Assembly: GCF_013408655.1 (NCBI RefSeq) | Contig: NZ_JACCBP010000002.1 | Span: forward strand, 496,001 to 560,000 | Length of the DNA stretch: 64,000 nt | Direction: 5' to 3' | Source: Pigmentiphaga litoralis | GTDB lineage: Bacteria > Pseudomonadota > Gammaproteobacteria > Burkholderiales > Burkholderiaceae_B | Part shown: positions 52,422 through 64,000 of the stretch, in pieces | How positions within the stretch are numbered: position 1 is the first letter of the stretch | How the letters are laid out: every line of letters starts with the position of its first letter | Notes under the pieces: generated by a model | Seen by the model: the letters and a program-made list of their open reading frames with translations, nothing else | Database searches by the model: none | What the model was told of the DNA's origin: nothing | Position numbers and translations under genes: made by a program

Positions 52422-52506
52422 GCCCGGGTGGTGAAATTGGTAGACGCAGGGGACTCAAAATCCCCCGCCGCGAGGCGTGCCGGTTCGATTCCGGCCCCGG
52501 GCACCA
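52422..52506 (+). tRNA. tRNA-Leu(CAA)
   Basis: An 85-base class II tRNA including the encoded CCA. The acceptor stem GCCCGGG pairs with CCCGGGC; the anticodon stem-loop is GGGGA-CTCAAAA-TCCCC, giving anticodon CAA; a variable arm and GGTTCGATTCC T-loop follow. Its 3' half serves as the integration site of the mobile DNA to the right. Confidence 0.96.
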
Positions 52507-52508
52507 CC
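52451..52508. repeat. att copy 1 (3' half of tRNA-Leu)
   Basis: This 58-bp segment recurs at 58085-58142 with two mismatches. It runs from inside the anticodon stem through the T-arm and CCA, typical of a tyrosine-recombinase attachment site within a tRNA gene. Confidence 0.9.
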
Positions 52509-52714
52509 GCTAACAGTGGCCTTCAGCAGAAGTGCCCACTAACAAATTCCGAAGTGTCCAGCATCCGTCCAGCAACTTTCAGGCCGGCAGACGCCAACGG
52601 TTTCGAGCTCTCCGGACCCGGTCCGGTTCCGGGAAAGCCGTTCAGGGTCAGAGGCCGCAAGGTATCAGAATTGGATTTTTGAGGTCATCTGCGACTGCGG
52701 CGGAGTTCACGTCG

Positions 52715-52741
52715 ACCCCAGCCCTACGCTGGGGTTTTGTT
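52715..52741 (+). terminator. Intrinsic terminator downstream of tRNA-Leu
   Basis: Stem ACCCCAGC (52715-52722), loop CCTAC and GCTGGGGT followed by TTTGTTT. It lies 210 bp after the tRNA. The interval 52509-52960 otherwise shows no supported gene. Confidence 0.75.
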
Positions 52742-52960
52742 TGTAGGCATGACATAAAGCCACTGATCCGGATGCGTTTCGGCGATTACCGGACTGTCGG
52801 ACGATGATTTATCGAAACGATGGGGTGGCACTACTTCACCACGCAGTCTGGCGCAGCGCCTTACTGGCGGACTCTCACCAGCTGTTCCCTTCGGCGGTCT
52901 TTCATTTGGATCCCTGTGGCTGATATCCCAAGGTGGCCGGCGCTGCTGCCTCGGGCGATT

Positions 52961-53460
52961 GCAAGGGGCAATGGCTATCAGCCGATGTTGTCGTTCATGC
53001 GCGCGGACTTGGGCGACGCCAGTGTCCGGCACCGGCGCCGCTCTAGAACGGCGCCAACCAACGTAAAGTTGACTTGAGTTTTCACACAAAGGCAGTTCGA
53101 TCTGTTCGAGGCGTTGGTGGATCACGACGTCGAGGACGCCGCAGCATGGTTCGAGGTGGAGCTGGCCCATTGCCTAGCATGACACCGGTGTACCCGGTTC
53201 CTCCAGAACCCGCCCTAAGACGAGTCATTGCACGCCAGCGGCTTCCGATTGGGAAACGTGGCTGCTGAGGTCGGAGTACGTCGGATACCGCCGCCGTCGC
53301 TAACGCTCACCTTGTAGGAGCTATGGGCAGGCAAGGCGGTGCTGGTCAACATAATCAACCCACGCGGCGACTCCCGGACGATCCGCGTGTGAACTGGTGG
53401 TGTCATGCGGCGCGAGTTCATCACGACCAACTTCTTGATCGAGTGGACGTGTGACGATGC
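52961..53460 (+). pseudogene. Remnants of phage tail proteins
   Basis: Plus-strand frames here contain a recognisable fragment (residues like RADLGDASVRHRRR, then a stop, then FTQRQFDLFEALVDHDVEDAAAWFEVEL) that resembles small tail-associated proteins of siphophages. A second fragment in another frame reads AVLVNIINPRGDSRTIRVWTG. Both are interrupted by stops and frame changes. Family assignment is by pattern memory only. Confidence 0.55.
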
Positions 53461-53858
53461 GGTGCAAGCAGTGCAGTCAGCCCCGCGGTGACGTTCACCG
53501 TACTAAAGGTGACCGTAGCCGGCCGTCTGCCGAGGCATCAATCACCGTCGCCAGCAGCGCGCCGGCGGCACCAGGCGGCACGGTCGGCCAGACGCAGTCC
53601 TGTCTGGCACTGCGCCTGGTCTGGTCCACGGCCGGCGCCGCGGCGCGGCACTATATCACCGCGCCATCCGTGGGCGACTACCCAGGCTTCAGCTGGAGCG
53701 GTCTGCCCAATCGCGAACCATATGTAGACGTTTCGTTGCTACTGGGTACGAATGGCGACGTCGTCTTTTCGCTGCGCTGCGTAGACCTTTGGGGCAACTC
53801 GTCGCCAACGAACACGGTGCAGCACGAGCCACCGCCAGATACCGGCGGTGGCGATTGA
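53451..53858 (+). CDS. Possible phage structural protein, probably partial
   Basis: A 135-residue frame from a GTG at 53451. The first 30 residues have poor composition and probably come from a neighbouring frame of the decayed gene upstream; the rest (from about SITVASSAPA) has a beta-rich, fibronectin-like pattern and ends PPPDTGGGD. It is followed by a hairpin-like CCCACCGCGCGCGGGC segment and then the next phage gene. Function not recognised; it may be the surviving end of a tail gene. Confidence 0.4.
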   Translation: MTMRCKQCSQPRGDVHRTKGDRSRPSAEASITVASSAPAAPGGTVGQTQSCLALRLVWSTAGAAARHYITAPSVGDYPGFSWSGLPNREPYVDVSLLLGTNGDVVFSLRCVDLWGNSSPTNTVQHEPPPDTGGGD

Positions 53859-53915
53859 CCAACAGCAGCACCCAAGCCCACCGCGCGCGGGCTTTTTCTT
53901 GTCGGCAGGGATCAA

Positions 53916-54228
53916 TGACGGAATTCAACATTGACGACTTGGCAGTCAAGCTAGCGGGCGTGGCTGGTGCTTTGGTCAACATGCGCTATCTCCAGGGTTC
54001 GCCAATGGCCCGCATCAGCAAGGCGGCCAGCGGCTCGCTGGTGAGCTATTACGCCGCACCTCACGTGGCGCACCTCACAGCATGCCCGAGGGCCTGACCG
54101 GGTTCCTGCTTGGCGTCTTCGGCATGGCCATCGTCAGCCGTGGCTGGGAAGCCCTTCAGACGGTGCCCGTGGCGGCCATCTGGCAGGCCGTGATTGACCG
54201 CATCAGCGGCCGCAAGGGAGGTGCCTGA
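53916..54228 (+). pseudogene. Frameshifted small phage membrane protein
   Basis: Frame one (ATG 53916) gives MTEFNIDDLAVKLAGVAGAL and on to a stop at 54097. The continuing protein is found one frame over from 54082 (MPEGLTGFLLGVFGMAIVS) to the TGA at 54226-54228. Joined, it would be a roughly 104-residue membrane protein directly before the holin, a common position for a second holin-like gene. One indel near 54080 explains the break. Confidence 0.7.
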
Positions 54229-54229
54229 C

Positions 54230-54508
54230 ATGGACGCGACGTTTTAAATCACCGGCAAGGCGGTAATCGCCTTCCTTTGCTGGCTCACTGTGGCTGCCGG
54301 CGCAACGCTGGCCGTCTTCGCCCCGACGATCAACGACACGTTGCTCGAGCGCGTTGCCCTGAGCGCGATCGCCATTACTGCAGTGGGCGCCGCTGTGCGC
54401 ATCCTTGCATCCGGCTGGGTGACCAACGGCGGCACAGCGTTGGCCGTGTCCCTTGCGATGTACGTGGTCGTGGTCGTGCTCAAACACACGCGGAGGTACG
54501 AATCATGA
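54230..54508 (+). pseudogene. Holin gene with early stop codon
   Basis: ATG at 54230 is followed after four codons by an in-frame TAA at 54245-54247. Beyond it the frame is open to 54508 and encodes three hydrophobic helices and a basic end (KHTRRYES), as in phage holins. A GTG at 54290 could restart translation without the first helix. The end overlaps the endolysin start by 4 bp, the usual lysis-cassette coupling. Confidence 0.72.
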
Positions 54509-55077
54509 TCTTGACCGTACAGCAGCTGGCGCGCGCCACCGATTCTCCGATCGGCCGCGCTGCGCCCTGGCTGTCGCCATTGAAGGCGGCGATGCAGGCG
54601 TTCCAGATCAACACGCCGCGCCGTGGTGCCGCCTTCCTGGCCCAGCTGACGCACGAGTCCGGGCGGCTGGTGTATGTACGTGAGTTGTGGGGGCCGACGG
54701 TGGCACAGAGCCGCTACGAGGGCCGTGCAGACCTGGGCAACACTCAACCAGGTGACGGCAGCCGGTACCGTGGCCGTGCCCTGATCCAGACGACCGGCCG
54801 GGCCAACTACGCGGCCACCCGCGACGGTTTGCGGAAGGCCGGCCCCGCCACGCCCGACTTCGTTGCCGAGCCGGCGCGCCTTGAAGAACGCGAGTGGGCT
54901 GCGCTGTCAGCGGCATGGTTCTGGACCGATTACAAGCGACTCAACCCGCTGGCGGACACCGGCACGATGGCCGACTTCGTGACCATCACGCGCCGGATCA
55001 ACGGCGGCATCAATGGCCTGTCCGACCGTCAGAACCTATGGAAGGGCGCGAAGGCTGCGCTGCAGGTGCCGGCATGA
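54505..55077 (+). CDS. Phage endolysin, GH19 chitinase-like
   Basis: 190 residues from the ATG at 54505, which has a GGAGG site; the frame extends upstream through the holin gene. The lysozyme/chitinase-19 fold shows the catalytic glutamate in LTHESGRL (E51), then SRYRGRALIQTTGRANY and a C-terminal TRRINGGINGL block. It would cleave peptidoglycan at the end of infection. It appears intact although the holin is not. Confidence 0.9.
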   Translation: MILTVQQLARATDSPIGRAAPWLSPLKAAMQAFQINTPRRGAAFLAQLTHESGRLVYVRELWGPTVAQSRYEGRADLGNTQPGDGSRYRGRALIQTTGRANYAATRDGLRKAGPATPDFVAEPARLEEREWAALSAAWFWTDYKRLNPLADTGTMADFVTITRRINGGINGLSDRQNLWKGAKAALQVPA

Positions 55078-55538
55078 GCCCGCTCGGCGCCCTGGGCATC
55101 GGTGCCGTGATCGGCCTGCTGGTGGGCGCCGGGGCTGGCTGGACGGCGCAGGGCTGGCGCGGCACCGCCCAAACACAGACGCAAGTCGCCGTGGTGGCCA
55201 CCGCGCGCAAAGACGCAGCGACGGCCGCCCGCAACGCCGAGCCGGATCAGCGCCTGATCGAATTCAACAGGATGGAAGCCAATGCGCAAGTCACCTACAA
55301 CGACAAGTCACGCCGCGATGAGAATGCGCAGGCTTCTCGCATAATGCCGCTGCTCTTGTCGGCCTGCGGAACGCCCTTACCGCCGCCGAAGTCCGCGCCG
55401 CCAGTGGTCAGGCCGGCGGCGATCCCGGAACCCGCACCGGCGCTGATGACCCCCGTACCCTACGAATCGTGGCGGGAGAGTGCACGGCAGAATACGGAAA
55501 GATGGCAGACGCTGCTGTCGGCGCCGGCATTACCCTGA
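55074..55538 (+). CDS. Merged Rz/Rz1 spanin
   Basis: 154 residues, start overlapping the endolysin stop. The N-terminal helix (about 4-28) and the following charged stretch match an i-spanin (Rz). From about residue 91 the sequence changes to PLLLSACGTPLPPPKSAPP, a lipobox and proline-rich segment typical of the outer-membrane lipoprotein Rz1, which normally lies in another frame inside Rz. A deletion or frameshift seems to have fused the two, so the spanin is probably non-functional. Confidence 0.7.
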   Translation: MSPLGALGIGAVIGLLVGAGAGWTAQGWRGTAQTQTQVAVVATARKDAATAARNAEPDQRLIEFNRMEANAQVTYNDKSRRDENAQASRIMPLLLSACGTPLPPPKSAPPVVRPAAIPEPAPALMTPVPYESWRESARQNTERWQTLLSAPALP

Positions 55539-55672
55539 CTGGGCTTCAGGAATATTTTTTAGCACTCGGCACTCGTGCAAAGTCGCCTCAGAAGCCGGCC
55601 TTTACCGGTCCACCACGTGTCGGCCGACGAACCAGAAGCAGCACCACTCGCTCCTTGCAAGCGACGAGCTCT

Positions 55673-56272
55673 CTAGTCGAAATGTGCAGCCATTGCTGCC
55701 ATGTTGTTTGGCAAACAGTACCGATCAACCATCACGGCCGGAATCTTGTACTGCTCAGCAATTGAGTCGGTACTCCGTCCTGCTGCAAGGCACGCCTTCC
55801 TCTCAGAAAAAGGAAGAAGGAACTCAATAGCTGCAATCTCCGCCAAGTACTCAGCGTCAACAGACAAAATCGCATCCACTGCCGCTGGGTCTGCTGCAAA
55901 CACCGGGTAAATACCTGCGGCCTGCACCTTCAAATCCATGTTCCTGTATTCATCGCAGTCAATGAAGGCGTGAAAAAGCTCTTTGCATAGTACAAATCGC
56001 TCCCAGCAGTCGTTGAGATCCTCCAGGATGACAATCTCAAGGTAGTCTTCTCGCGCTAAGTAAAAACCCTTGATAATCTGGGTTTTTTCACTCACGTGCA
56101 CCGTTGTGTATTGGATCGGCTTCTTGGTGAGATCTTCGGCGAGGTCCTGCAGATAGCCGATCGACTTCACTGTCGACGTACGGTCGGGCACCCGCTGGCC
56201 GTATAGTTCCGAAACGTGGCTAGCCAGCGATAGACAGTGCGCAATATGGTCGTCTTTGAGATTAATTGCCAT
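55673..56272 (-). CDS. ImmA/IrrE-like protein with altered zinc motif
   Basis: 199 residues from the ATG at 56272. The layout matches DUF955/ImmA metallopeptidases, which cut phage repressors: RFVLCKELFHAFID in the middle and AEYLAEIAAIEFLLP after it. The canonical HExxH reads KELFH (97-101), with the first histidine replaced by lysine, so proteolytic activity is doubtful; some relatives share this variant. A 69-residue gene precedes it and may be cotranscribed. Confidence 0.68.
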   Translation of the reverse strand: MAINLKDDHIAHCLSLASHVSELYGQRVPDRTSTVKSIGYLQDLAEDLTKKPIQYTTVHVSEKTQIIKGFYLAREDYLEIVILEDLNDCWERFVLCKELFHAFIDCDEYRNMDLKVQAAGIYPVFAADPAAVDAILSVDAEYLAEIAAIEFLLPFSERKACLAAGRSTDSIAEQYKIPAVMVDRYCLPNNMAAMAAHFD

Positions 56273-56334
56273 TCTGGTGCGACAAAAAAAATTGGGGCCC
56301 CCAATTGGAGCCCCACAATACAAACAGCGAAAAT

Positions 56335-56544
56335 TTAAGCGTGGGCGAGATGCTTATCGTTGCATCGAGCACGTGGCGACACTGACCCGTTGCAATAAGC
56401 TTGGAGGACATCAGCCATGCTCTGTTCCACGTGACTTAAGGCATGAGCGTCTGCTTCAAGCTTGAAAAAAAACTTTACGTCAAGAACGCCCCGTTGGACG
56501 AGCGTACCCTGTACGGCGTTCAAGCTGTCGGTTGCGTTGGACAT
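56335..56544 (-). CDS. Small protein upstream of the ImmA-like gene
   Basis: 69 residues from the ATG at 56544, with a clear GGAGAGAG site. Not recognised. It is helical and acidic, with FFFKLEADAHALSHVEQSMADVLQAY; no helix-turn-helix is evident. Being 62 bp before the ImmA-like gene and behind an operator-like repeat, it may be a partner or regulator of it. Confidence 0.6.
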   Translation of the reverse strand: MSNATDSLNAVQGTLVQRGVLDVKFFFKLEADAHALSHVEQSMADVLQAYCNGSVSPRARCNDKHLAHA

Positions 56545-56623
56545 AGCTCTCTCCGGTTCGATTAGGTGTCCTGGGGACACATAGCGCCCACTCGATGTCG
56601 AGCAAGCGATAAAATTTTGTGAA

Positions 56624-56647
56624 GTCAACTAGTACACCAGAGTTGAC
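56624..56647. promoter_or_regulatory. Operator-like inverted repeat before the ImmA operon
   Basis: GTCAACT-N10-AGTTGAC is a perfect 7-bp inverted repeat, and a further GTCAACC half-site begins at 56655. It lies 80 bp upstream of the 69-residue gene in an AT-rich 318-bp gap that holds no gene. Confidence 0.5.
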
Positions 56648-56862
56648 GAAGTCAGTCAACCCATCTAGTCAATTCATGCAACAGCGCATCGGTGTAGCCA
56701 ACATATCAGACTTTAATTCGCATAGGAATATAAGTTTGATATCGGCACGAAGTCACAAAACTCAAGCTTAGAACAGCAAATTGCGTACCCATCAATCGAC
56801 GAATCGAAGCATGCAAGCCCGGATCGGCGTGGTGTGCAGCTTGAGTAGATTCATCATAAATC

Positions 56863-57530
56863 TCAACCCATTGGCTGAGCAATTAGGCGATCGGCTGGGT
56901 AGGTCTGCATGAAATCCATCGATTCGCTAGCCGACGAGGTAAGCCAAGGCCCATGAGCGCCAGCAGGCAGAACCACGACCATCCGTTTTTCGTCTGTTGG
57001 GCGGTGGTAATCCCGCAACAACTCGTGCCGGTCTGCGTTGATCGTCAGCATGGTAAAGCTCTCAATGAGCTCGCCAGATGGCGACCGCCACCGATCCCAT
57101 AGCCCGGCGATGCTCAAGGGCTCGCCGTCTGCCGCCGTGAAGCGGGTCGGCACTGCCTTGTCGGATCGCCAGTCAGGCTCGAAAAACGCCTCGGCGGGGA
57201 TGACGAAGTGCTGGGCCTTGCGCCAGGCATTGCCAAACGTGAACGCCTTCGCCGCAGTCTCGGACCGGGCATTGAAGGTCGACAGCTTCAGTGCCTTGTC
57301 AGCGCCCTCTGCCTTGGTCAGCGCGGACACCAATCCCCACCGGCCCCTAAGGCCTTCACGGTCTGGGACCGCCTCGTCGCCAGCGTCGTGCTCTAGCGGG
57401 CGGCGAATAACAGCCCGGCGTACTTCGGCCACATGTCAGTCTTGCCGAGGTCTCCGGTCGGCCATGAGACCCCGGGGAACCTCTTTTCGAGCAACGCGAC
57501 CGCCTCGGCCGCTTGATAGTGGCTGCACAA
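56863..57530 (-). pseudogene. SOS response-associated peptidase (SRAP/YedK), frameshifted
   Basis: A TTG at 57530 with an AGAGGA site begins L-C-S-H-Y, so the processed protein would start with the SRAP catalytic Cys2. This frame stops at 57393. The rest of the protein (IRRPLEHDAGDEAV to QPMG, with NARSETAA, PAEAFFEPDW and WDRW) is one frame over. A single indel near 57410 breaks the gene. SRAP proteins crosslink to abasic sites in single-stranded DNA. It lies directly downstream of a LexA-boxed gene. Confidence 0.78.
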
Positions 57531-57584
57531 ATTTTCCTCTCGATTGACTGCTGCGCAATCGTAACTGACCAAGTTGGCCAAACC

Positions 57585-57953
57585 CTATGAGGGCTCGTCC
57601 AATTCGATGGGCAGATAGCCGTCGTCATCGTCGTCGATGTCAAGCTTGGAGGGGCGGGGTGCAACGCCACGGCCGCTTCGCCGTGCCTTTTGTTCCATAA
57701 CGGCTGGTTCCTGCTCAAGCAAGAGGTTTGGTTGGTGCAATGCGGACAAAGTGCCGCCACGCTCTTGTAGCCATACAGAGGCGACAGTGGCGCTCAGCTG
57801 GTCCACCTGTCGCAGTACCCCATGCAGACGCGCAATCTCGTTCAGCAGCATGCGAGGCATTTCGTCAGTGTGGTCGACCCAAATGGCTCGCAGCTTCGCA
57901 AGCATCATTGGTTCCATGGGCGTGGTGAGGCGCGGGCGTTTCATTGTCGACAT
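57585..57953 (-). CDS. LexA-boxed phage protein of unknown function
   Basis: 122 residues from the ATG at 57953; alternative ATGs at residues 4 and 13 are possible. Helical N-terminal half (PMEPMMLAKLRAIWVDHTDEM) and a disordered acidic C-terminus (DIDDDDDGYLPIELDE). Not recognised, but it sits immediately before the SRAP gene and a near-consensus LexA box abuts its start, so it is the first gene of an SOS-induced pair. If the first ATG is used, the mRNA is nearly leaderless. Confidence 0.62.
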   Translation of the reverse strand: MSTMKRPRLTTPMEPMMLAKLRAIWVDHTDEMPRMLLNEIARLHGVLRQVDQLSATVASVWLQERGGTLSALHQPNLLLEQEPAVMEQKARRSGRGVAPRPSKLDIDDDDDGYLPIELDEPS

Positions 57954-57954
57954 T

Positions 57955-57974
57955 AACTGTATATATATACAGTA
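57955..57974. promoter_or_regulatory. LexA (SOS) box
   Basis: AACTGTATATATATACAGTA matches the enterobacterial LexA consensus (CTG-N10-CAG with a TA core) at 19 of 20 positions. It lies right in front of the 122-residue gene on the minus strand. Confidence 0.85.
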
Positions 57975-58084
57975 TTGGCCACCTTGAAACGTGTCCAGCA
58001 CTTCGGAACGCTCCCTGCCATCGAAAGCACGCAATTTGCTGGACAGATCGGCCGGAGACCCGCACCAACGCTCGCTTGTGTAGT

Positions 58085-58142
58085 GGACTCAAAATCCCCC
58101 GCCGCGAGGCGTGCTGGTTCGATTCCGGCCCCGGGAACCACC
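58085..58142. repeat. att copy 2 (3' tRNA-Leu fragment)
   Basis: 58 bp matching 52451-52508 with two substitutions. No 5' half of a tRNA is present, so this is an attachment-site copy, not a gene. A broken integrase begins 122 bp to the right. Confidence 0.9.
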
Positions 58143-58264: not shown

Positions 58265-59376
58265 ATGGCTACGATCGTTAGGACTTCCTCGAGCACTTGG
58301 ACAGCCCTCATTCGCAAGACCGGCTGGCCGGCCATGGTTAAGCCATTCCACACCAAGCGAGACGCCGAAGCCTGGGCGCGCCGTACCGAAGACGAAAGGG
58401 TACGCAACGTATACATCCAGCGGGGGCCGGCCGAGCGCATGACCGTCGAAGCGGCGCTGACCCGCTACCTCAAGTAGGGCACGCCCACGGAGCGGGCCTC
58501 GACCCAAGCCGTTTCCTCACCTAAAAATGGCCGGCGACCCGGACAAGCATCGCGAGCTACAGCCTCCCAGTACCAAGGCAGTGCACTTGGAACTGGCGCT
58601 GCTGGACCACCTGTTCACCTTCGCGATCAAGGAACGAGGCATTGGCCTGCCCTTCAATCCAGCATCCAACGTCCGCCGCCCGACCTCGGCTGGGGCCGCA
58701 ACCGGCGATTGACGCCTGCAGAACAGTACCGCCTGCTACAGGCCGTACATAAGCACTCGACCCGATGTACGTGTGGATCGGCCGCATTGCCGTGTTTAAC
58801 GGCATGCGGCTGTCTGAGGTTGCGACGCTACGTATCCGGCAAGTGGACATCGAGCGGCGCGTCGTTCGGCTGGAGTGGACCAAGAACTTTTCGGCTCGTA
58901 CCGTCCCGCTGACTGCTGAGGCAAGGTGCGTCTTCAGCGAGGCACTTGCCAACCCAGTGCGTCCTGCTGAGTCCGAATTTTGGTTCTTCGGCGAGGGGCA
59001 GGGATGGCATCCGCCCGCCCTACCTATTTGATGAAACATGAGCCGACGCCAAACGAGCAGCAGGCCTTAAGACTTCCGCTTTCATGACCTGCGGCACGAG
59101 GCTGTCAGCCGGTCTGTGGAAGCCGGCCTGAGCTATCAAGAGGTGCCGGCCATCAGCGGCCATAAGTCGATGCAGATGCTCAAGCGTTACAAGCGTCTTC
59201 AAGCGGAAGACTTTATGCAGAAGCTGGAAAGCCAGCTACCGGATACCAAGCTACTGACACCGGCAAGAAAGCCCATGTCGAAAAACGGTTCCGGTACGTT
59301 AGCTAGACAAGAAGCCTTGTGCACCAGCAACTACACCTTCGTGGAAGGGGGCAGCTCACTGAACTCAGTGACGTGA
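58265..59376 (+). pseudogene. Tyrosine-type integrase, multiply broken
   Basis: Fragments in order: an N-terminal arm-binding piece (58265-58477, TGWPAMVKPFHTKRDAEAWARR); a core-binding piece in another frame (about 58527-58712, TFAIKERGIGLPFNP); catalytic pieces in a third frame with GMRLSEVATLR (58765-59031) and, after several stops, FHDLRHEA, SGHKSMQMLKRY (to 59376). All catalytic residues (R, HxxR, H, Y) survive but are split by at least three lesions. It would have integrated into tRNA-Leu next to it. Confidence 0.85.
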
Positions 59377-60065
59377 TGGGCGTAAAGCAGTCCCAGCTGA
59401 ATTACCGTAACCACATATGTGGTGCCGATGGCTGGGCAAAATCGGACAGCATGCGTGCTAGTTACAAAAAAATTCCGGATCAGGCTCATGGAGATATGCA
59501 GGGTAAGGCGGCTGTCATCCTGACCAACGATTGATGGATGCCCGAGCGCTTGTTCAAGCGCAGATAATAACCCTGAGCCACTTCTAAAATGAAAGGCCTT
59601 TCACCGATGAGTTAAGAGCCTTTTCTTTGGTTCTACGCCGATCTGTGGGTTGGCGAGAGTCGCAGAACTACCCCGAGCCCCCATCGGACAAAAGGGCCAA
59701 ACCTAACGTTCAGCAATGGCCGCAACTTCAACGCAAAGGACCTCAATAGGCACAGGATTCTCCGGTAGTGACCTCCAACCCGCGGGTGTTGAAGAACACC
59801 GTCCTTGATGCTTGGTTGCGTCGCAGCTGCAACCCGCCGCTAATTGGTCGCCGTAGCCAGAAAGCTCCCGATTCCTGCTTGCTTATATTTCGCGGGGCGC
59901 CGCAAACCGTGCCGTCTCGCAAATAGGTGCGCCCATTGCACGTATGCCTGTTCCGGGCGTAGGATATTGTGTTTGTAACTAATTCACTCATAGACTGATT
60001 CAGCAAGATCAGAGTGGCTCCTTAGAGCCAGCAGCATACCTTGTAAGTTATTCATTGGGGCAAAT
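59377..60065. other. Gene-poor stretch
   Basis: 689 bp with no convincing gene. An 87-residue minus-strand frame (59743-60006) has many Cys/Arg residues and no recognisable domain; a 71-residue plus frame (59319-59534) overlaps the integrase end. Both are left uncalled. Confidence 0.5.
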
Positions 60066-60797
60066 GTGGCCGCACCCTCCAACAATCATTCGACAAGCTC
60101 TAACTATGAAATGCTGGTTGTCGCCCTCCTGAATCAAGAGATCGGTGGAATCTCCGGAATAAACATAGTCGAAATGAACCGCGACGTCAGCATTACAGGA
60201 CTTTCTGGCTATACACACCAGATCGACGTCGTGTACAGGATGAAAATCTGGCTCACTGAGATTCTAGTTCTAGTGGAATGCAAGCAGTATAAAAAGCGCG
60301 TTGGGATCGATGATTTACTCGAATTCAAGTCCAGGCTTGACGACCTTCGCGCACATAAGGGCGTCTTTGTCACCTCTTCGGGCTATCAAAGTGGAGCAAT
60401 TGAGTTTGCTCGCGCAAATCGAATCGCGCTTCTGGTTGTCCATGCAACTAAGAAACTGTCGGTTCTTTATTCGCTCAGCCAAACGAGCGAAAGAGAACGC
60501 GCGCTTGAGCAACTGGACGACCTTGAGAAGAACTATCAAACCATAAAGTCCGGACACGCGAAGCGAATCACTACTGACAGAAATTTTAAGCATGTCATTG
60601 TTCAGCATGACGGAGTGACATTGGAGCTACGCCCGTGGGAGCTTCATCAATCGATGCTTTATAAGCAGTCGTGCGCTCTGTCAGACACTGAGCGGAATGG
60701 TATCTATTTTTCCCGAGATAAGTTTGATTACTTGCCCGTCAACAAAGTCTTGAAGTCAATTGTTCTAGATATTCTCTTGGTACCAACCGACGGTTAA
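60066..60797 (+). CDS. Mrr-like restriction endonuclease domain protein
   Basis: 243 residues from a GTG at 60066. The N-terminal 120 residues have the Mrr_cat/PD-(D/E)XK pattern: D54 in HQIDVVYR, then E71-C-K73 in LVECKQYK, and downstream KGVFVTSSGYQSGAIEFA. The C-terminal 120 residues are not recognised. Mrr-type nucleases cut modified or foreign DNA; here the target is unknown. AT-rich composition and position suggest transfer with the island. Confidence 0.8.
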   Translation: MAAPSNNHSTSSNYEMLVVALLNQEIGGISGINIVEMNRDVSITGLSGYTHQIDVVYRMKIWLTEILVLVECKQYKKRVGIDDLLEFKSRLDDLRAHKGVFVTSSGYQSGAIEFARANRIALLVVHATKKLSVLYSLSQTSERERALEQLDDLEKNYQTIKSGHAKRITTDRNFKHVIVQHDGVTLELRPWELHQSMLYKQSCALSDTERNGIYFSRDKFDYLPVNKVLKSIVLDILLVPTDG

Positions 60798-61808: not shown

Positions 61809-62552
61809 ATGAAGTATGCACTTCCGGTTGATCACGGCATGTCCGTCCTTCTTGCACAGAATTGGCTGTTCAGTGACAGTGATGGACAACTTGCGTTAAA
61901 CGATGTTCAGTATGAAGCCCTATCTGCTGGTGTGGCACGCGGACATCGCACCGGTCAACGCCACGTGGTTTTCATGCGAATGGATAGATGGTGCTGCCCT
62001 TTGGAAGTTGGAGGGAACACTCGAGAACTTAAGAGCCGGCATGTTGCGAGAGCTATTTCGCGATCTCGGATGGTGTTGCAAGGGATGGCCGAAATAGGTT
62101 CAGCCGCTTGTGACGCACGCATCCCAAAATCGAATCGCCCAGCCGCGCTTCGCCTGGAGGACAGCACACTCAAGCTTTCAGCTCGATTGCCGCGTGCGAT
62201 AAAACGCCTTTTCTATCGCTTGACCGAGGGCCTTCCTGACAATGTCCTATGGATGGTAGGCCTATGTACGCCTGGTTCTCCGTATTTGCTTAGAAGGGAA
62301 GAGATATTAGCCCTTAATGCAGCAGGACTTACGTCACCGGAAGCGTTAATGCAGGGGTCGGCCGATGCTGATGCTGCTAGGACAACAGCGCTTATTGGGG
62401 TGAAAGCCGGCCTCCAGGCCAAGGCAAACTGGCTTCGCGACGCATGCCGAATTTGGAAGGCGAACCAGAGCAGCCCAAATGCAAAAAAACGTGCCAAAAA
62501 AATGTCTAAAAGAGCACCTGATAGATTTCTTTTATCTAGCTACTGGAAATGA
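61809..62552 (+). pseudogene. C-terminal remnant of a Ski2-like DEAD/DEAH helicase
   Basis: The open frame is 247 codons but its middle (about 61925-62075) is arginine-rich nonsense, while the next frame there reads SCEWIDGAALWKLEGTLENLRAGMLRELF, a pattern seen in the C-terminal domain of Hel308/Ski2-like helicases. The outer parts (MKYALPVDHGMSVLLAQNWL and RLPRAIKRLFYRLTEGLPDNV, then GLTSPEALM) fit the same domain. So two compensating shifts are likely. No ATPase motifs are present; the N-terminal two-thirds is missing. Confidence 0.62.
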
Positions 62553-62985
62553 CTTCGAGCGAGCGTTCGAGGAAGTGTTAGGTTTCTTGAAAATAGAAAA
62601 CAAACGGCTGGATGACAACAGTAAGAAGGGAGCGCTCGACTATTTCGTCCAACTGCCCAGTTTTCCGCCCCTGATCCTGGAACTTAAGTCACGCGAAACA
62701 GGTAAGTTAGTTGATCCTAACCGAGCCGTTGAAGTGTTAGCCGCCTCAGAGGTTCATGGGTACAAGGACGCTTTTGGTGTGACTCTATGCCAAACGAGTG
62801 TCGACCCTAGCGTTCCCAGCGTAATAGCGTCATGTAGCCGTTTAGCCGTGATCGAAGCGGTCGATCTAGGAGAAGCGCTTCTGCGATACTGCGAAGGCAC
62901 TCTCTCTGGAGAACAGCTATACCGTTGGCTCGTCACTCCAGGGCAAGCAGTTGCCGCCGATCTTCCCTATGGAGACTATGCATAA
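62479..62985 (+). CDS. PD-(D/E)XK nuclease-like domain protein
   Basis: 168 residues. D54 in GALDYFV and E68-L-K70 in LILELKSRE give the nuclease core. The C-terminal block (SRLAVIEAVDLGEALLRYCEGTL, then WLVTPGQAVAADLPY) recalls the extreme C-terminus of large helicase-nuclease proteins. It overlaps the helicase remnant by 74 bp in the next frame, so originally it was probably the end of the same polypeptide, now separated by a frameshift. It may still be made as a stand-alone protein from the ATG at 62479. Confidence 0.6.
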   Translation: MQKNVPKKCLKEHLIDFFYLATGNDFERAFEEVLGFLKIENKRLDDNSKKGALDYFVQLPSFPPLILELKSRETGKLVDPNRAVEVLAASEVHGYKDAFGVTLCQTSVDPSVPSVIASCSRLAVIEAVDLGEALLRYCEGTLSGEQLYRWLVTPGQAVAADLPYGDYA

Positions 62986-63085: not shown

Positions 63086-64000
63086 ATGGCAGGAACAGCA
63101 GATTTTATAAGAGCAGACTTTTCAGGAACACTTTTTCCCATGAAGACCAATCTGATTGTTCTAGAGCATTATGAGAAAGAGTTGGCAGCGTACATATCTA
63201 GCCGGGTCCTTTCAGAGGATCACCCCGCTGATAGTTTTCTGCCACAGCAGACAGTTCACGCCACAAAGCCTCGCGGGCACCTCCGCCGCACTGTCAAATT
63301 GGACCCTGTAGCGGAATACTTCCTCTATGACGTTGTGTACCGAAACAAAGCCCTATTTCGACGACAAGTCAGTAACGAGCGACGGAGTTTTGGTTATCGG
63401 TTCAAGGACGGAGAACCTATCTCAGTCCATACAGCCTACCTTGACTACAAGGCCAGCATTGAAGAGCTCGCAACCTCCTTCAGCCATCGCCTGCAGTTCG
63501 ATATTGCCTGTTACTTCAATTCCCTATATCACCATGACATTGCCCACTGGTTTGCGGGCAATGATGGTGTATCTGAAGCCGACGCTGATGCCGTTGGCAA
63601 GTTTTTTCGAGAAATTAACGCAGGCAGAAGCGTCGACTTCTTACCTCACGGTATCTATCCAGCAAAGATGGTTGGCAATGAATTCTTAAAATTTGTCGAT
63701 CTTTCGGGCATGCTGAAATCAACAGTAATCTCGAGGTTTATGGATGACTTTAATCTCTTCGACAACGACGAGGCTGTCCTTCGCCAAGATTTCTATCGCA
63801 TACAGCAACTGCTAGGACAGTTTGGCTTAAATGTAAACCCCAGCAAGACGCATTTTGACAACAATTCTGGACGAGTTGAAGATACCCTTTCCGCACTTCA
63901 TGACTCGCTGAGTCATATAGTTCAGGGTATTGCGCAACTTGAAGGAGCATCCGGGGTTGATTTTGTGGAGGTAGAAGAAGAAGTTGTGCTAGGCCTCTCG
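63086..64000 (+). CDS. Reverse transcriptase of the antiviral (DRT/Abi-like) type, N-terminal part
   Basis: The frame from the ATG at 63086 (GAGG site 8 bp upstream) is open for 305 codons to the window edge. RT motifs appear in order: TKPRGHLRRTVKLDPVAEY (60-78), motif A FDIACYFNSLYHHD (D139), motif B FLPHGIYPAKMVGNEFL (185-201), motif C RFMDDFNLF with D220-D221, and motif D GLNVNPSKTH (K254). The catalytic aspartates are intact. FMDD instead of YADD and the HGIYPAK motif B differ from group II intron and most retron enzymes and suggest the unknown-group/abortive-infection RTs. The subclass is not assigned. Confidence 0.85.
   Translation, partial: MAGTADFIRADFSGTLFPMKTNLIVLEHYEKELAAYISSRVLSEDHPADSFLPQQTVHATKPRGHLRRTVKLDPVAEYFLYDVVYRNKALFRRQVSNERRSFGYRFKDGEPISVHTAYLDYKASIEELATSFSHRLQFDIACYFNSLYHHDIAHWFAGNDGVSEADADAVGKFFREINAGRSVDFLPHGIYPAKMVGNEFLKFVDLSGMLKSTVISRFMDDFNLFDNDEAVLRQDFYRIQQLLGQFGLNVNPSKTHFDNNSGRVEDTLSALHDSLSHIVQGIAQLEGASGVDFVEVEEEVVLGLS

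Follow-up and report, generated by a model that had tools for sequence, protein, structure and literature searches.

A DRT5 reverse transcriptase at the end of a tRNA-Leu island of Pigmentiphaga litoralis and its probable untemplated, protein-primed synthesis

The reverse transcriptase (RT) gene at the right edge of the DNA analysed here (the window, a stretch of 64,000 nucleotides of Pigmentiphaga litoralis, G000:C2:496001-560000) encodes an intact member of the known antiphage RT family DRT5. We consider it fairly probable that this gene, drt5, is a stand-alone, AbiK/Abi-P2-like DRT5 (UG16), the last gene of a tRNA-Leu island, whose product carries out untemplated, protein-primed synthesis.

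The drt5 gene and its family

The frame opens at ATG 63086 on the forward strand and its in-window part (63086..64000) holds residues 1-305. When the contig was extended rightward (stretch L002; adding 56999 to an L002 position gives the window position), the frame continued without a stop until the TGA at 64570 in extended coordinates (L002:7571), giving a protein of 494 amino acids from a gene at G000:C2:559086-560570. The C-terminal part thus lies beyond the window, as the initial annotation had supposed, and the frame is unbroken past the edge. A TTG located 45 bases upstream of ATG 63086 is a possible alternative start, but in the drt5 genes of E. coli and the roseobacters the start is annotated close to the position of the ATG. 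A scan of L002:5700-7950 found no sigma-70 promoter, and the same region held 4 terminator-like sites versus 2.1 expected.

All of the RT motifs that had been read from the sequence were present when numbered from ATG 63086: the catalytic aspartate D139 of motif A (codon 63500..63502, forward strand), the HGIYPAK of motif B (H188-K194), the FMDD of the active site (F218-M219-D220-D221, 63737..63748, forward strand) and K254. All 8 of the 8 DRT5 rows aligned, our own among them, keep D139, D220, D221 and K254.

The results of the profile searches showed that the full-length protein matches the NCBIfam model Drt5 (NF041750) with 653.1 bits against a curated cut-off of 550 (E = 3e-196), over residues 7-492 and over positions 1-483 of the 484 of the profile. 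The three Drt5 models of PADLOC scored from 572 to 718 bits, the best of them over residues 3-493. Among the best 25 of 39 PADLOC matches, the next families were Drt8 (92 bits), UG20 (72 bits), UG33 (59 bits) and UG31 (50 bits), and the lower ones included Drt3b (30 bits), AbiP2 (28 bits) and AbiK (27 bits) and also Drt4; the E. coli and Phaeobacter DRT5 proteins gave a similar picture. The enzyme had been called unassigned, which the curated equivalog model overturns, while its description as an antiviral RT of the DRT or Abi kind was borne out by its place in DRT5. The DRT5 family was reportedly named as antiphage by Gao et al. 2020, and the classes of UG7, UG16, UG20 and others are said to have been assigned by Mestre et al. 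2022. At E 0.1, Pfam found in the 494 residues an RT domain alone (RVT_1, 25.0 bits, under its cut-off of 29.6), and a search of the P. litoralis genome for RVT_1 at E 0.001 gave one match, which is drt5. The model of group II intron RTs and maturases TIGR04416 scored 22.6 bits, its cut-off being 300, Pfam found no maturase domain, and Rfam at its gathering threshold gave no intron RNA in L002. There was also no Rfam match to a retron RNA in L002, in a collection that may not cover all retrons, and no stable fold in the flanks of the gene. These results agree with the earlier view that the enzyme belongs neither to a group II intron nor to a standard retron. The type 5 DRT of Gao corresponds to UG16 in the excerpted text of PMC7699616.

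Comparison of our protein with that of E. coli (WP_001524904.1) showed 60% identity, equal length, the same motifs and the same C-terminal GQSDW...Y block. The two differ in their diverged sequence, in their host and in their setting, the E. coli gene having a MobQ relaxase gene beside it on an element that also carries plasmid-like genes, whereas ours is in a tRNA-Leu island. In E. coli strains SCU-124, L1PEag1 and A42 (L014 to L016), this element is integrated and carries MobQ relaxase, RepL and PilV genes, several genes being frameshifted in some strains.

Conserved residues and the chemistry of DRT5

An alignment of 10 DRT5 rows, our own included, contained 137 invariant positions (the row of L013, truncated at its N-terminus, and that of L003, which has a stop, were ignored at the positions affected). 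The C-terminal block at residues 445-486 is conserved as densely as the RT core, with 18 invariant positions of 42 in the former and 50 of 125 in the latter (residues 136-260), while the three stretches between them have 3 of 50, 11 of 70 and 17 of 64. This block reads GQSDWLSW...ERNYxLDYFxKxS in most rows. The invariant hydroxyl residues are T69, Y78, Y81, Y104, Y118, Y121, Y143, Y148, S182, Y191, S212, T255, S451, S455, Y476 and S481; residues 1-64 have no column that is tyrosine, serine or threonine in all of the 10 rows, and S458 and S478 are each replaced by an alanine in at least one row. The C-terminal domain of relative L004 was predicted as helix pairs with a pLDDT of about 80 over its usable part (approximately residues 302-426), and the best structural matches of this predicted domain were helical-repeat proteins. 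No PDB entry was matched to it by Foldseek at E 0.001 or better, and AbiK and Abi-P2 were not among the 50 matches listed by VIA-align, which excludes neither. The full-length prediction for L004 (pLDDT 44) was used for no distance. A search of solved structures with the DRT5 profile found no entry at a family-level score.

In the excerpted text of PMC9508834, the catalytic residues of AbiK are D163, D247 and D248, its Y44 carries the DNA and its Y142 and Y145 contact it, while Abi-P2 primes at Y61. Residues Y142 and Y145 of AbiK precede D163 by 21 and 18 residues, respectively. The same spacing separates Y118 and Y121 of our protein (codons 63437..63448, forward strand) from D139, and an aromatic pair at -21 and -18 was found in 10 of 10 DRT5 proteins, our own included, and in the single Drt8 protein compared (that of G116, with a tyrosine at both positions). 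It was absent from 10 of 10 other profile-matched RTs and from 4 of 4 DRT2 proteins; one of these 14 has a tryptophan at -21. For this comparison 12 of 25 profile-matched places were taken, one of them being our own gene and 11 being compared, and the DRT2 rows are the four (L031, L033, L034 and L036) of five in which the motif pattern was found, L035 lacking it and L037 being left out. In Abi-P2 (7r08), W171 and F174 align with this pair, preceding the aspartate by 21 and 18 residues; of the other printed structure alignments covering these columns, 9wy8 had one aromatic residue and 9ioa had none. The spacing shared with AbiK would link DRT5 to a DNA channel like that of AbiK, as judged by position in the sequence and not by structure. 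The residue located two positions before motif C (Y245 in AbiK) was dropped as evidence, since it is aromatic or a histidine in all of the RTs compared.

AbiK and Abi-P2, which are class 1 UG/Abi polymerases, share with DRT5 an RT core and the aromatic pair at -21 and -18; DRT5 probably resembles them also in its helical C-terminal domain, here predicted, and in acting as a single gene. They differ from it by a low profile similarity (28 bits for AbiP2 and 27 bits for AbiK), by priming at an N-terminal tyrosine (Y44 in AbiK and Y61 in Abi-P2), in a region where DRT5 has no all-hydroxyl column, and by the conserved C-terminal block that DRT5 carries. DRT8, which we take to be UG7, is the best family after Drt5 (92 bits over residues 12-400) and has the pair of tyrosines in the one protein compared; its score is far under that of Drt5 and the C-terminal block of DRT5 does not align with that one Drt8 protein. 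DRT3b (UG8) is described in the excerpted text of PMC13174585 as a class 1 RT with a helical-repeat domain, primed from its C-terminal tyrosine Y666. It resembles DRT5 by a weak profile match (30 bits) and differs in belonging to a system with DRT3a and a non-coding RNA (ncRNA), while no partner was seen for DRT5.

By analogy with AbiK, DRT5 most likely makes protein-primed, untemplated DNA. An RT lobe of palm and fingers would be followed by a helical-repeat domain replacing the thumb, and the protein would oligomerise. DNA would start on a hydroxyl side chain of DRT5 itself and be extended as a single strand without a template, the nascent strand running along Y118 and Y121, and on infection this DNA, or the oligomer bearing it, would block phage replication or stop the cell. 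The class 1 enzymes studied so far make DNA without a nucleic-acid template and some are self-primed (excerpts of PMC13174585 and PMC12632851). In the published model for DRT4, as reported in an excerpt of PMC13213688, toxic single-stranded DNA builds up when a phage protein protects it. Because residues 1-64, where AbiK and Abi-P2 prime, contain no column made up of hydroxyl residues throughout, the priming residue is most likely in the invariant C-terminal block, where S451, S455, Y476 and S481 are the candidates. Priming by a protein residue near the C-terminus has a precedent in Y666 of DRT3b. The more precise proposal, that DRT5 is an untemplated polymerase priming on one of these four residues and not on an N-terminal tyrosine, is put forward tentatively.

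A different use of such DNA would be that of the class 3 enzyme DRT1. According to the excerpted text of PMC13275509, DRT1 primes at S402, and purified DRT5S and DRT5L carry out template-free, protein-linked DNA synthesis and are called class 3. If our protein were DRT1-like in this sense, protein-primed, template-free DNA would keep the oligomer dormant until a phage enzyme acted on the DNA and an effector was freed. This is unlikely for our protein: class 3 is defined by nitrilase or phosphohydrolase domains (PMC13275509), neither of which was found by Pfam at E 0.1 in the 494 residues, and its nearest profiles are Drt8, UG20, UG33 and UG31. Nitrilase fusions are the mark of unknown groups 1 and 5 (excerpt of PMC8934634), and for these reasons the DRT5S/L of the 2026 paper may be UG5 and not the DRT type 5 of Gao (UG16), a possible clash of names. 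If DRT5S/L were UG16 after all, they would be direct evidence for the mechanism proposed here for DRT5. An overview of May 2026 (PMC13213688) still lists, in its excerpted text, the mechanism of DRT5 as not established, and among the titles and abstract openings of open-licence literature we found none giving a priming residue or a structure for DRT5 or UG16.

Companion genes and flanking RNA

We compared the neighbourhoods of ten drt5 loci within 5 kb, several of which are shorter than 5 kb on one side, and found no neighbour protein in common, other than between the two roseobacters. In the plasmids of Phaeobacter inhibens (L010 1-5992) and Roseovarius pelagicus (L009 331-2142), drt5 directly follows an ATP-binding (DUF87-type) gene, which is one frame of 603 amino acids in Roseovarius and two frames in Phaeobacter. 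It was rejected as a companion, since none of the other drt5 loci compared has a related gene within 5 kb. A gene of the SIR2 family and an HsdR-like gene lie further upstream of drt5 in Phaeobacter, an arrangement that resembles a defence set of the SIR2-HerA type.

DRT2, DRT9 and DRT10 work with structured ncRNAs that they copy. DRT5 could likewise copy an ncRNA lying farther off, overlapping the gene or evolving too fast to be seen, an alternative that we regard as unlikely, and slightly less probable than the class 3 reading. Its starting points are that the DRT5 profile matches 9ioa, which we take to be DRT9, nearly as well as Abi-P2, and that a flank test limited to 400 nt per side and nine loci gave two weak matches. 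In this test the flanks were aligned locally, in 36 pairs and 72 comparisons, against 60 dinucleotide shuffles (the upstream flank of G310 was of 111 nt only, and 8 Roseovarius pairs are at 41-44% protein identity). Two of the 72 comparisons exceeded all shuffles, the Paraburkholderia/IMGVR pair upstream (z 3.5) and the Cupriavidus/Roseovarius pair downstream (z 4.1), which is approximately the number due to chance (about one expected).

For DRT2, whose RNA lies upstream of the gene, the same test gave an upstream z of 12.5 in the pair at 53% protein identity. One pair at 44% reached z 7.0, and the other 12 pairs at 38-45% gave nothing; the 94% pair was uninformative, so that above 50% identity this control rests on one pair. 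The test thus works, by that one control pair, at the 60-77% identity of 28 of the DRT5 pairs, among which Paraburkholderia/IMGVR, on the upstream side, was the only one to exceed its shuffles. A blastn search (word 7) of 600 nt in 11 drt5 flanks gave no match beyond the closely related pairs (the two E. coli strains, and Phaeobacter with Roseovarius) and one of 19 nt between E. coli and G361 (E 0.036). At the gathering threshold, Rfam found nothing in the drt5 flanks of nine loci (L003 left out); its two matches in these loci, one to a tRNA and the other to a group II intron, lie away from drt5. The intron RNA (RF00029) is on the contig of the G310 relative (L013 337-406), about 5.6 kb from its drt5. 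Our own flanks (99 nt upstream and two pieces of 150 nt downstream) fold like their shuffles, with z values of 1.3, 0.6 and 0.2, respectively, so the structured ncRNA that had been suggested as a point to check was found in them neither by folding nor by Rfam. No conserved partner gene or flanking RNA was seen in the nine to eleven loci compared, over 400 to 600 nt for RNA, which would suit the preferred reading of DRT5 as a stand-alone enzyme.

The tRNA-Leu island and the distribution of drt5

The island measures 6.8 kb, is bounded by copies of the 3' end of a tRNA-Leu (CAA) gene and has drt5 as its last gene. The source of the repeats, found by a tRNA scan and repeat alignments, is the tRNA gene at 52422..52506 on the forward strand. 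The left boundary repeat (58082..58142, forward strand) is 95% identical over 61 nt to 52448-52508, and the right one, found by repeat alignment, is outside the window at extended coordinates 64888-64939 (L002:7889-7940). Between these second and third repeats lie pieces of an integrase, an Mrr-like gene, a membrane-protein-like frame (by eye), the remains of a helicase and then drt5. The tyrosine integrase is spread over several short forward frames in 58265..59376; of the three tested, only that at 58765-59031 scores above the cut-off of Pfam Phage_integrase (37.2 bits against 27.1), and the remaining ones probably belong to the same integrase.

The Mrr-like nuclease and the helicase-nuclease remains named as neighbours by the initial annotation were both recovered. 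The former is a restriction endonuclease gene at 60066..60797 on the forward strand, with a match to PF04471 Mrr_cat (49.6 bits, cut-off 21, E 5e-13) and to the type IV REase of PADLOC (E 8e-8). The latter are two forward frames in 61809-62985 whose matches adjoin each other in the C-terminal region of a single Cereibacter protein annotated as a DEAD/DEAH-box helicase, at 33% identity over query residues 89-220 for the first (61809..62552) and at 35% identity up to the end of the 962-amino-acid plasmid-borne protein for the second (62479..62985), the larger N-terminal part being without a counterpart in the island. The second frame is nuclease-like by eye; we do not count it as a likely component of the DRT5 system.

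Sister genome G768 gave no Drt5 match. The stretch fetched from it has one full copy of the repeat, 99% identical over 101 nt to our third copy and the DNA to its right, followed by 1.75 kb of other content and by a match that starts in the last part of the repeat and leads to the same LysR-type gene. This layout would fit an insertion at the tRNA gene, with other cargo in the sister. The cargo at this site in G768 (L030 8537-10235) comprises a frame of 257 amino acids, the end of which resembles our 59314-59567 at 72%, and an SDR-type dehydrogenase (by eye). A second element (52448-58142) occupies the space from the tRNA-Leu gene to where the DRT5 island begins on the left; it has frames resembling a prophage lysis cassette by eye (54277-55538), an M78-peptidase-like frame slightly below its Pfam cut-off (55673-56323), and parts in common with G768 at 84-85% identity.

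Searches in draws of genomes that overlap in part found Drt5 at E 1e-60 in 3 of 369 genomes of the class, our own included. Among 399 genomes drawn from the order, 11 from the genus and 398 from the phylum, our own was each time the single carrier. In the families of two distant carriers (E 1e-40), the gene was found in 1 of 41 and 1 of 6 genomes, the carriers themselves. With Cupriavidus DNA as query, drt5 was present in 7 of 5426 E. coli genomes. It was also found in 4 of 72,556 plasmid records and on one viral contig, met twice in four scans, while there was no match among 50,697 phage records at E 1e-20. A scan of genome contigs with short exact patterns added relatives from Paraburkholderia and Methylobacter, and the nine relatives are 42-68% identical to our protein. 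Such counts suggest that DRT5 is rare and scattered, which would fit a mobile defence gene. The Methylobacter relative, from a metagenome bin (L003 1016-2500, 61% identity), has one in-frame stop near residue 241 in an otherwise continuous frame. That our drt5 has itself decayed and is carried along inactive in an island that is dying out, as this stop and the broken integrase and helicase beside our gene might suggest, is very improbable, given that its own frame of 494 amino acids is intact, exceeds the cut-off score of the family and retains the catalytic residues.

The P. litoralis gene is an ordinary member of a known antiphage family, which gains with this locus a diverged but intact representative on an island with clear borders. 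Candidate residues for the chemistry of DRT5 come from the comparison, Y118 and Y121 for the DNA channel and S451, S455, Y476 and S481 for priming. If the tentative proposal of C-terminal priming were true, DRT5 would combine the DNA channel of AbiK with C-terminal priming as in DRT3b, in a block found perhaps only in DRT5.
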